A DNA stretch of 64,000 nucleotides from Halopiger aswanensis. Its GTDB lineage: Archaea; Halobacteriota; Halobacteria; Halobacteriales; Natrialbaceae. Every line of letters begins with the position of its first letter. The stretch's first letter is position 1. Below, in pieces: positions 6,253 through 9,543 of this stretch. The notes under the pieces are model-generated. The model ran no database searches. It had not been told where the DNA came from and was given only the letters and a program-made list of their open reading frames with translations. The DNA is taken from assembly GCF_003610195.1 (NCBI RefSeq), contig NZ_RAPO01000003.1, positions 496,001 to 560,000 of the forward strand. Direction: 5' to 3'. Position numbers and translations under genes: made by a program.

Positions 6253-7944
6253 TCAGTTCTCGAACCGCGCCTGGACGAACGGCTGGATGTCGTCGATATC
6301 GGAGAGGCGAGAGTCCGAAAGCAGGACGGCTTCGGTCTCCTCGAGCGGCACCGAGAGGCTGATCTCCTTCGTGCGGCCGTAGCGGCCCTTCGAGACGACG
6401 ACGGCGTTGACGATCCCGAGCATGTCGAGTTCGCTGATGAGGTCCGTCACCCGGCGCTGGGTGAGCACGTCGGCGTCGATCTCCTCGCAGAGGCGCTTGT
6501 AGATGTTGAACACCTCGCCGGTGTTGATGCTGTGGACGCCGTTTTTCTCGAGCAGGATGATCGCGAAGAGGACGAGTTTCGACTGCGTGGGGAGCGTGCG
6601 GACGACCTCGACGACCCGATCGAGTTCGATCTTGTCCTGAGCCTGCCGGACGTGCTCCTCGACGATCGTCTCGGCCTGGGAGCGCTCGGCGAGTTCGCCC
6701 GCGGTCCGCAGGAGATCGAGCGCGCGGCGCGCGTCGCCGTGTTCCTGGGCCGCGAACGCGGCACAGAGGGGGATCACGTCCTCGGAGAGTGCGCCGTCCT
6801 TGAACGCGACGTCCGAGCGGTGCTCCAAGATGTCCCGCAACTGGTTCGCGTCGTAGGGTGGAAAGACGATCTCCTCCTCACCCAGCGAGGACTTGACCCG
6901 GGGATCGAGGAAGTCGGTGAACTTCAGGTCGTTCGAGATGCCGATGATCGAGACCCGGGAGTTCTCGAGTTCGGAGTTCATCCGCGAGAGGTTATAGAGG
7001 GTGTCGTCGCCGCTTTTCTCGACGAGTTTGTCGATCTCGTCTAACATGATGACGACCACCCGCTCGTCGTAATCGACGGCGTCGAAGAAGACGTTGTAGA
7101 CGCGGTCGGTCGGCCAGCCGGTCATCGGGACGTCCTCGAACGAGTCCTTGTCCTCCTCGAGCGAGTCGATTCGGTCCTCGATCTCGGTTACGGAGTCGAA
7201 CGGAGTCGATGCGAGGGGGTGAGACGGTTCGGCGTCGCCATCGGCCGTGGCACCGGACTCTCCCGCGGTGTCGCCATCCGAATACCCCTCCGTTTCAACT
7301 GGAAATTCGCTTGACGTGTCACGATTATCGTCTCCAGTCGAAACGTCGGATTCAGATGCGTCGGCGAATTCGTCCGGATAGTCGAAATGCTCCGACCCAT
7401 CGGCGGACGGGGCCGCTCCGTCCTCGTACTCCTCGACGGCCTCGAGCAGGTCCTCGAGCGAGTCGATTCGTTCGTCGATCCGCTCTTTGTTCTTCTCGAT
7501 GAATTTGTTCGCGAGTTGCGCGAGCACGCGATACTGCGTGTCCGTTACCTCGCAGTTGATGTACTCGACGTCGCAGGGGACGCTGTACTTCTGGGAGGTG
7601 CTCTCGAGTTCCTTGCTGACGAACTTCGCGCTGGCGGTCTTGCCGGTTCCCGTTTTGCCGTAGATGAGGATGTTAGACGGCGTCTCGCCACGAAGTGCGG
7701 CGACCAGGATCGTCGCCATCTTGTTGATCTGGTCGCTCCGGTGGGGGAGTTCGTGGGGCGTGTAGGACGGTCGAAGGACCTCCTTGTTCTCGAAGATCGG
7801 TTCGCCGCTCAGCAGGTCGTCGAACAGCCCCTGTTTGGGTTCGTCGTCGCCGAGCTCGGTATCGCCGAAGTCCGTCGAAAACCCGTGCGTATCGTCGCCC
7901 TCGACGTCGTTCGAGCCCGTGAATTCAGTATCGTCATCTGACAT
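6253..7944 (-). CDS. orc1: Orc1/Cdc6 replication initiator
   Basis: Protein of 563 residues that binds ORB elements and loads MCM at the origin. The AAA+ domain shows Walker A GKTGTGKTAS, Walker B VVIMLDEIDKL, sensor 1 IIGISNDLKF and sensor 2 HGDARRALDLLRTAGELAE; the C-terminal winged helix follows (LVLFAIILLEKNG...). An acidic insertion of about 80 residues (170-250, with FPVETEGY at 214-221) is longer than in most Orc1 proteins and carries an ORB-like DNA element. The ATG at 7944 is preferred over the GTG at 7959, which overlaps an ORB. It sits beside the origin and is divergent from oapA, as at known haloarchaeal oriC1 loci. Confidence 0.96.
   Translation of the reverse strand: MSDDDTEFTGSNDVEGDDTHGFSTDFGDTELGDDEPKQGLFDDLLSGEPIFENKEVLRPSYTPHELPHRSDQINKMATILVAALRGETPSNILIYGKTGTGKTASAKFVSKELESTSQKYSVPCDVEYINCEVTDTQYRVLAQLANKFIEKNKERIDERIDSLEDLLEAVEEYEDGAAPSADGSEHFDYPDEFADASESDVSTGDDNRDTSSEFPVETEGYSDGDTAGESGATADGDAEPSHPLASTPFDSVTEIEDRIDSLEEDKDSFEDVPMTGWPTDRVYNVFFDAVDYDERVVVIMLDEIDKLVEKSGDDTLYNLSRMNSELENSRVSIIGISNDLKFTDFLDPRVKSSLGEEEIVFPPYDANQLRDILEHRSDVAFKDGALSEDVIPLCAAFAAQEHGDARRALDLLRTAGELAERSQAETIVEEHVRQAQDKIELDRVVEVVRTLPTQSKLVLFAIILLEKNGVHSINTGEVFNIYKRLCEEIDADVLTQRRVTDLISELDMLGIVNAVVVSKGRYGRTKEISLSVPLEETEAVLLSDSRLSDIDDIQPFVQARFEN
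7284..7305 (-). repeat. ORB-like element inside orc1 coding sequence
   Basis: ACCCCTCCGTTTCAACTGGA at 7284-7303 is the same sequence as the left arm in DP1. It encodes FPVETEG in the acidic insertion of Orc1. A weaker relative, CTCCAGTCGAAACG at 7332-7345, lies 26 bases to the right in opposite orientation but lacks the G run. Confidence 0.7.
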
Positions 7945-7957
7945 CCGTCGTACAGTC

Positions 7958-7980
7958 ACCCCCTTGTTTCAGGTGGAAAT
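7958..7980 (-). repeat. Origin recognition box A (overlaps orc1 promoter region)
   Basis: Read on the minus strand it is TTTCCACCTGAAACAAGGGG plus one more G, close to the Sulfolobus/haloarchaeal ORB pattern TTCCA..TGAAACGAAGGGG. It ends 14 bases upstream of the orc1 ATG, so bound Orc1 would cover its own core promoter or leader; autoregulation is a reasonable inference. Confidence 0.8.
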
Positions 7981-8378: not shown

Positions 8379-8406
8379 CCCCCCACCCCTTCGTTTCGGG
8401 TGGAAC
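8379..8406 (-). repeat. Origin recognition box B
   Basis: Minus-strand reading GTTCCACCCGAAACGAAGGG followed by GTGGGGGG. This is a near-consensus ORB with an extended G string. Its C-rich plus strand could pair imperfectly with the G-rich run at 8412-8436, so a hairpin or cruciform is possible beside the unwinding region. Confidence 0.85.
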
Positions 8407-8416
8407 TGTCTGAAGA

Positions 8417-8436
8417 GGGGGTGGGAGGGGAGCGGG
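8417..8436 (+). other. G-quadruplex motif in the origin
   Basis: GGGGGTGGGAGGGGAGCGGG contains four G runs of 5, 3, 4 and 3 with loops of 1, 1 and 3 bases, a canonical intramolecular quadruplex pattern. It lies between ORB B and the A+T-rich core. Confidence 0.6.
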
Positions 8437-8454
8437 TGCCTCTAGAAGGGGAAG

Positions 8455-8580
8455 CTTTAGGTCGGTGGCTGGAAAACAATATCCGAACGACTAGCAAATA
8501 TAGAGTTTTACTAGGGATGTTGTAGTCTGTTACTAGTTACAACTAGATTCTCTGTCTAGAGCGCCTCGAGTTACTAGAAC
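8455..8580. other. A+T-rich core, probable duplex unwinding element
   Basis: Locally A+T-rich DNA (for example GGAAAACAATAT, GCAAATATAGAGTTTTAC) in an otherwise G+C-rich genome, placed between outward-facing ORBs B and C. TTACTAG recurs at 8508, 8530 and 8571, and CTAG, normally rare in haloarchaeal genomes, occurs six times here plus once at 8442. Confidence 0.65.
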
Positions 8581-8623
8581 CGCCGATTCCATCCGATTCC
8601 GTCCGGAGACGTCCTCTCTTTTC

Positions 8624-8646
8624 GGTTCGCCTCGAAAGAAAGGGGT
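8624..8646 (+). repeat. Degenerate origin recognition box
   Basis: GGTTCGCCTCGAAAGAAAGG followed by GGT keeps the GGTTC, CTCGAAA and AAGGGG blocks of an ORB but differs at the core (TTCGC for TTCCA, AAAGA for AAACG). Same orientation as ORB C, about 45 bases before it. Confidence 0.4.
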
Positions 8647-8691
8647 TCGTTCGACCGGTCGAGCTGTTCCAGACCACCACTCCTTCGACAC

Positions 8692-8719
8692 TCTCCAGTT
8701 GAAACGAAGGGGTGGGGGA
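8692..8719 (+). repeat. Origin recognition box C
   Basis: CTCCAGTTGAAACGAAGGGG followed by TGGGGG. It is opposite in orientation to ORB B, with its G string pointing towards oapA, and closely related to the elements in DP1 and orc1 (TCCAGTTGAAACG shared exactly). Confidence 0.85.
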
Positions 8720-8904: not shown

Positions 8905-9543
8905 ATGGGACTGTTCACAGAACTCAAAGATAGTATCTCTCGGGTTACGGACCGCCTGTTCTCAGAACAGGAACCCAAACGTATCGGTATCTACGGTCCG
9001 CCGAACGCCGGCAAGACGACGCTCGCAAACCGAATCGCACGGGACTGGACCGGTGACGCCGTCGGTACGGAAAGTCACGTTCCACACGAAACGCGACGCG
9101 CACGCAGGAAAGAAAACGTCGAGATCGAGCGCGACGGGAAGAAGGTGACCATCGACATCGTCGACACGCCCGGCGTGACGACGAAGGTCGACTACGAGGA
9201 GTTCACCGACGAGATGGACGAAGACGACGCGATCCGTCGCTCCCGCGAGGCCACGGAGGGCGTCGCCGAAGCCATGCACTGGCTTCGCGAGGACGTCGAC
9301 GGCGTCATCTACGTCTTGGATAGCGCCGAGGATCCGATCACGCAGGTCAACACGATGTTGATCGGCATTATCGAATCCCGCGATCTCCCCGTTCTTATCT
9401 TCGCCAACAAGATCGACCTCGACGAGTCGAGCGTCAAGCGTATCGAGGACGCCTTCCCGCAGCACAAGACGATCCCGCTGTCGGCGAAGGAAGGCGACAA
9501 CATGGACGAAGTCTACGACAATATCGCGGAGTACTTCGGGTGA
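8905..9543 (+). CDS. oapA: Era-like GTPase, origin-associated protein OapA
   Basis: Protein of 212 residues starting MGLFTELKDSISRVTDRLF. GTPase motifs are complete: G1 GPPNAGKTT, G3 DTPG, G4 NKIDLDES, G5 SAKEGDN. In haloarchaea this GTPase is the first gene beside oriC1 (origin-associated protein A); its role at the origin is poorly defined. The frame is open to 8848, but GGAGGG at 8891-8896, eight bases before the ATG at 8905, is a good ribosome binding site, and family members begin at MGLF. It is followed by oapB after six bases and oapC, an evident operon. Confidence 0.92.
   Translation: MGLFTELKDSISRVTDRLFSEQEPKRIGIYGPPNAGKTTLANRIARDWTGDAVGTESHVPHETRRARRKENVEIERDGKKVTIDIVDTPGVTTKVDYEEFTDEMDEDDAIRRSREATEGVAEAMHWLREDVDGVIYVLDSAEDPITQVNTMLIGIIESRDLPVLIFANKIDLDESSVKRIEDAFPQHKTIPLSAKEGDNMDEVYDNIAEYFG

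Follow-up and report, generated by a model that had tools for sequence, protein, structure and literature searches.

The locus examined here raises the question of why a tetramer that haloarchaea avoid should occur seven times within 136 bp beside an initiator gene, and whether these CTAG sites could act as a methylation-dependent control signal in the manner of GATC in bacterial origins, as was suggested when the sequence was first read.

Results

Seven CTAG sites lie in the core of a predicted oriC1

All seven CTAG sites named in the original prediction start exactly where it had put them (Table 1), and the general avoidance of this tetramer that it assumed was borne out. The window, by which we mean the whole 64-kb stretch of DNA that was analysed, contains 21 CTAG compared with 93.6 expected from dinucleotide shuffles (sd 9.2), and seven of these fall in 0.2% of its length. 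Across 464 kb of the H. aswanensis genome there are 149 CTAG (O/E 0.31, approximately one per 3.1 kb), far from a random frequency, and the densest other 136-bp stretch in these 464 kb holds three sites. In 321 AT-matched windows the mean was 0.15 CTAG per 136 bp. Shuffles restricted to the 136-bp core produced seven or more sites in only 0.04% of cases; this test is conservative because the core's own CT, TA and AG content is retained. The longer motif TTACTAG occurs three times in the window, each time inside the array. The cluster is not an artefact.

The cluster was also correctly assigned to an origin core: it lies in an AT-rich segment, flanked by inverted origin recognition boxes (ORBs) and adjoining orc1/cdc6, which on these sequence features is predicted to be oriC1. 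A similar ORB pair was found in nearly all of the fetched origins and in most named origins. The GTPase gene on the right is of an oapA-like type found in 292/292 Halobacteria genomes. This order of orc1, inverted ORBs and GTPase gene matches the standard haloarchaeal oriC1 layout (PMC3936714).

Table 1. Features of the predicted oriC1 region (window coordinates).
Feature	Coordinates	Strand	Evidence or remarks
orc1/cdc6 initiator gene, 563 aa, flanks origin	6253..7944	-	NCBIfam NF001625 ORC1-type DNA replication protein, 654 bits vs cut-off 501; Pfam Cdc6_C, Cdc6_lid
Left ORB	8380..8404	-	Inverted-repeat arm, 88% complementary to 8694-8718
Inter-ORB AT-rich segment, probable unwinding element, contains array	8405..8693	.	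GC down to 0.32 at 8490-8549
G-rich element just inside left ORB	8415..8430	+	Sequence; resembles H. hispanica oriC1 G-rich enhancer repeat (PMC3936714)
CTAG site 1, 58 bp inside left ORB core	8442..8445	.	CTAG in 17/29 Natrialbaceae
CTAG site 2, opens phased array	8491..8494	.	22/29 Natrialbaceae
CTAG site 3 as TTACTAG (CTAG 8511)	8508..8514	+	23/29 exact, 27/29 within 6 columns
CTAG site 4 as TTACTAG (CTAG 8533)	8530..8536	+	27/29 Natrialbaceae
CTAG site 5 (ACTAGA)	8543..8546	.	28/29 Natrialbaceae
CTAG site 6, lineage-specific	8556..8559	.	4/29 Natrialbaceae
CTAG site 7 as TTACTAGA (CTAG 8574)	8571..8578	+	28/29 Natrialbaceae
Right ORB	8694..8718	+	Inverted-repeat arm
GTPase gene, origin-associated (oapA-like) type, bounds origin on right	8905..9543	+	small_GTP domain

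Three further features of the region were noted. An additional ORB-like repeat (7957-7978), 86% identical to the left ORB, immediately precedes the start codon of orc1; most Natrialbaceae origins have it at an equal offset, an arrangement that would suit control of orc1 by its own product. Between CTAG sites 1 and 2, at 8451-8495, a conserved GGGAAG-TTTAT is followed some 25-30 bp on by a conserved TATCCG, and Halorubrum-like origins have AACAGTACCCTCGACAAT at the matching place; this element, within the origin, resembles a BRE/TATA promoter. Orc1 itself carries a long, acidic, low-complexity insertion in its AAA+ domain (residues ~165-265), at which matches to relatives often break; open frames range from ~500 to 850 residues.

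Distribution of CTAG among related origins

The comparison covered 120 origin loci from whole genomes and 80 named loci; orc1 and the ORB pair were located where possible and CTAG was counted between the ORBs. Families carry the labels of the genome set: by shared contigs, f1 includes Natrinema, Halopiger and Natronococcus (Natrialbaceae) and f4, here called Haloferacaceae, includes Halobellus and Halonotius; its genus g27 is taken to be Halorubrum. Against dinucleotide shuffles of the inter-ORB segments, observed and expected counts were 175 and 55.4 in f1 (29 origins), 39 and 10.6 in f3 (7 origins), 9 and 1.9 in f7 (2 origins) and 13 and 5.1 in f2 (5 origins). For f4 they were 16 and 9.7 with the methyltransferase considered below (15 origins), and 8 and 11.5 without it (22 origins). 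The named genera agree with these family-level counts, with 5-8 sites per segment in Haloarcula, 6-7 in Halosimplex, 6-11 in Natrinema, 7 in Haloterrigena and 6-9 in Natrialba; and low numbers in Haloferax (1-2), Halorussus (1) and Halobellus (0). Outside the Haloferacaceae, 55/67 origins have at least three inter-ORB sites.

When 136 tetramers were ranked by enrichment over flanking DNA, CTAG came first in f1 (15-fold), f3 (34-fold) and f2/f7/f8 (19-fold), compared with 4- to 9-fold for AT-rich tetramers; in f4 it was enriched approximately 6-fold, level with other AT-rich tetramers. AT-richness alone can be ruled out as the cause by this ranking, by the AT-matched windows and by the inter-ORB segments of Haloferacaceae, which are at least as AT-rich and yet have few or no CTAG sites. 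The original prediction would have been undermined by a near-random genomic frequency or by homologous origins lacking the cluster: neither applies in Natrialbaceae or Haloarculaceae, where clustering recurs, whereas the homologous origins of Haloferacaceae do lack it.

Replacement of CTAG by GATC or CATTC was considered and rejected, as GATC is not enriched in methyltransferase-less Haloferacaceae origins (O/E 1.01, with g27 cores at 4.8 per kb) and CATTC shows no enrichment in Natrialbaceae origins. At two loci of Natrialbaceae genus g6 (L075 and L076), from genomes that carry the methyltransferase, orc1 is separated from the GTPase gene, and neither an ORB pair nor a CTAG cluster was found upstream of orc1; the origin of these genomes may have moved.

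The arrangement of sites is fixed in Natrialbaceae

Alignment of the 29 f1 origins showed that sites 2, 3, 4, 5 and 7 keep their order and spacing (20, 22, 10 and 31 bp). A TTACTAGA-type context is retained at these five sites while the sequence between them has diverged; 93-97% of f1 origins share sites 4, 5 and 7 unchanged, whereas the median aligned tetramer is conserved in 10%. The five sites also show helical phasing (R=0.97 at 10.4 bp), to a degree matched by 0.14% of random arrays. In f3 origins only the first sites are fixed and the others retain CTAG without the context or the phase. Helical phasing as a general rule was therefore discarded, being true of Natrialbaceae and failing in Haloarculaceae.

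CTAG clusters recur at other orc genes of the genome

A pattern search of the whole genome for CTAG triplets (gaps of at most 30 bp) returned only seven places in 4.87 Mb, four of which are upstream of orc/cdc6 genes: the oriC1 under study, C1:34399, C1:731190 and C12:14535. The three further orc loci, two on C1 and one on C12, are not homologous to oriC1 and have 4-6 CTAG within 150 bp; a TACTAG-like core recurs in other orc-linked clusters, and at L006 and L014 differing inverted repeats, read by eye in the sequence, flank the cluster. A folP-linked orc paralogue (L007) was present in 45/61 family genomes searched. In the four relatives checked (G242, G077, G151 and G181), compared at this second locus by pattern positions only, a CTAG cluster lies ~650-750 bp upstream of the paralogue in differing arrangements. 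That CTAG density persists in Haloarculaceae and at the second orc locus while the arrangement varies indicates that CTAG itself is the point. At oriC1, the sites are shown to form a CTAG array under selection within the unwinding segment.

Twelve or more orc/cdc6 paralogues are encoded on the chromosome and plasmid-sized contigs of this genome. One further CTAG triplet (L169; G000:C2:51771-51789) is upstream of a gene judged by eye to be cdc48-like, and the second genome of this genus has the identical sequence (G242:C3:377036-377054).

A candidate CTAG methyltransferase and its relation to the cluster

H. aswanensis encodes a PF01555 methyltransferase (G000:C2:17749-18810) which, judging by its family and distribution, is probably a CTAG-specific enzyme of the Zim/HG1 type. 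The family was found in 253/292 Halobacteria genomes; it is lacking in 39/104 Haloferacaceae (19 of these 39 assigned by elimination) versus 0/188 genomes elsewhere. The gene is missing from most g27 genomes, the same gap as that reported for the CTAG enzyme in Halorubrum (PMC6471742, PMC10609329). In a phylogeny of 119 origins, the methyltransferase state changes at least eight times, always within f4, which accounts for 26% of the tree length. A search for the gene in phages returned distant relatives only.

Clusters of at least three sites occur in 0/24 origins from genomes without the methyltransferase. However, 25/28 f4 origins with the gene are also without a cluster, and few-site lineages outside f4 (f6, f10 and parts of f2 and f9) retain the enzyme. 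A simple link in which methyltransferase presence predicts CTAG number was not supported by phylogenetic independent contrasts, which gave a negative slope (-0.72, SE 0.20) that we think is driven by recent changes within g27. A plain rank test of Haloferacaceae outside g27, uncorrected for descent, gave 1.68 sites with the gene versus 0.30 without it (p=0.0002). Taken together, the absence of clusters where the gene is absent, the frequency of genes without clusters and the negative contrasts indicate that enzyme loss is confined to a cluster-poor family, rather than a tight correlation between the two.

Discussion

The explanation that we consider best, at a probability of about one half, is that the CTAG array in the oriC1 unwinding segment is methylated and limits or times initiation. 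The array sites would carry m4C added by the Zim-type orphan methyltransferase, would become hemimethylated on passage of the fork, and their methylation state may then alter the ease with which the origin is melted or re-bound, either through changed duplex stability or by recruitment or exclusion of a putative protein. Initiation would thereby be limited or timed, as by GATC at bacterial oriC although with no shared parts.

Modification of this motif is documented in relatives: m4C at CTAG has been measured in Haloarcula marismortui (PMC6606915) and in Natrinema pallidum (PMC12160562), a species with nine CTAG sites in its inter-ORB segment (L224). That the enzyme has been lost solely in the cluster-poor clade also counts in favour of the methylation explanation. 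Against it are the methyltransferase-positive lineages with few sites (Haloferax with 1-2, Halorussus with 1 and genus g6 with none by orc1), as well as the observations that low-GC regions can remain unmethylated in a Haloferax (PMC11001535) and that H. volcanii deleted for the CTAG enzyme shows unimpaired growth (PMC5867850). Ouellette et al. (2018) found CTAG enrichment at only one H. volcanii origin, the cluster being reported as lacking at two of three, which fits the sparse CTAG of Haloferacaceae.

The proposal of a methylation-dependent control signal like GATC thus stands in part. The position in the oriC1 core, the avoidance of CTAG elsewhere, the presence of a CTAG-family methyltransferase and the recurrence of the cluster at homologous and non-homologous origins make such a signal at the array plausible; the simple GATC analogy is weakened by the lineages that have the methyltransferase and no cluster, by the negative contrasts and by the H. 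volcanii deletion that left growth unimpaired. CTAG as the archaeal counterpart of origin GATC, an idea already put forward in PMC4752239 and again in PMC10609329, is our best working model, not a proven one. A more elaborate form, which we put forward tentatively, is a methylation clock operating in most oriC1 outside the Haloferacaceae: a hemimethylated array, with m4C on one strand, would need full re-methylation before refiring, and the methyltransferase would for this reason never have been lost there but repeatedly lost in Haloferacaceae after decay of the array.

The main rival to the methylation model is a protein-binding array, in which (T)TACTAGA, as duplex or single strand, is recognised by a replication protein (an initiator, a helicase-loading factor or an architectural one) and CTAG is simply the core of its site, methylation being incidental. 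We regard this as rather doubtful. The single orientation of the extended TTACTAGA motif in Natrialbaceae, the spacings that set five sites on one helix face and the TACTAG-like core at other orc-linked clusters all fit such an array, and the context and phasing could mark it equally well, to the detriment of the methylation explanation; but Haloarculaceae show neither the phasing nor the longer motif, spacing at the second orc locus varies freely with CTAG still dense, and protein binding alone leaves the absence of the cluster in methyltransferase-less origins unexplained.

A purely physical role, in which the array tunes melting, appears unlikely. CTAG is rich in TA steps and would open easily, and m4C destabilises DNA duplexes, so that a methylated origin would be easier to open and a newly replicated one harder to re-open. 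The array does coincide with the locally AT-rich part of the inter-ORB segment, but other AT-rich or TA-containing tetramers are far less enriched and the segments of Haloferacaceae, no less AT-rich, do without CTAG. Finally, that the sites have no function and reflect relaxed avoidance in AT-rich noncoding DNA, which is all that the f4 enrichment would require, is highly improbable and already contradicted by the AT-matched windows (0.15 versus 7), by the excess of CTAG over shuffles of the same segments and by site positions that are conserved across genera where neighbouring sequence is not.

If the methylation reading holds, DNA methylation may help to time chromosome copying in salt-loving archaea. 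We know of no demonstration of epigenetic control of replication in Archaea, and the literature has yet to assign a function to CTAG methylation in haloarchaea. Here a broad signal of motif density has been resolved into five conserved, phased sites within the segment that has to melt at the origin, and the contrast of Haloarculaceae and Natrialbaceae with Haloferacaceae suggests a reason why little was learned from the H. volcanii knockout and indicates suitable test species.

Among known systems, the Haloarcula hispanica oriC1 has the same inverted ORBs with G-strings, AT-rich core and adjoining cdc6, and its minimal functional origin corresponds to this segment; in the experiments covered by the relevant sections of PMC3936714, mutations hit the G-rich repeats and ORBs, not the CTAG sites. 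Dam/SeqA at Escherichia coli oriC likewise combines a palindromic tetramer, an orphan methyltransferase, clustering at the origin and hemimethylation expected after replication, but it differs in using m6A, a GATC that is not rare genome-wide and DnaA, where haloarchaea have m4C, a rare CTAG and Orc1/Cdc6 with ORBs.

The closest parallel is provided by the origins of Blow et al. (2016; PMC4752239, Fig. 6D), who described CTAG clusters upstream of haloarchaeal orc1/cdc6 genes and proposed a role in replication, a proposal repeated in a 2023 survey (PMC10609329, HG1). In the parts of these papers and of PMC6471742 (cHG U) that deal with such clusters, the motif, its place upstream of orc1/cdc6, the several orc genes per genome, the methyltransferase and the proposed replication role are all shared with the present locus. 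In H. aswanensis the cluster is likewise upstream of orc1/cdc6 beyond chance, recurs at orthologous origins and is accompanied by a candidate Zim/HG1-type gene in the same genome. Those sections treat motif density only; the base-level architecture, with five phased sites in TTACTAGA context between ORBs, and the confinement of methyltransferase loss to a cluster-poor family were worked out here and do not appear in them. As the clusters and their proposed replication role were published in 2016 and again in 2023, the H. aswanensis array is best described as a well-supported case of something already reported, to which base-level and evolutionary detail has now been added.
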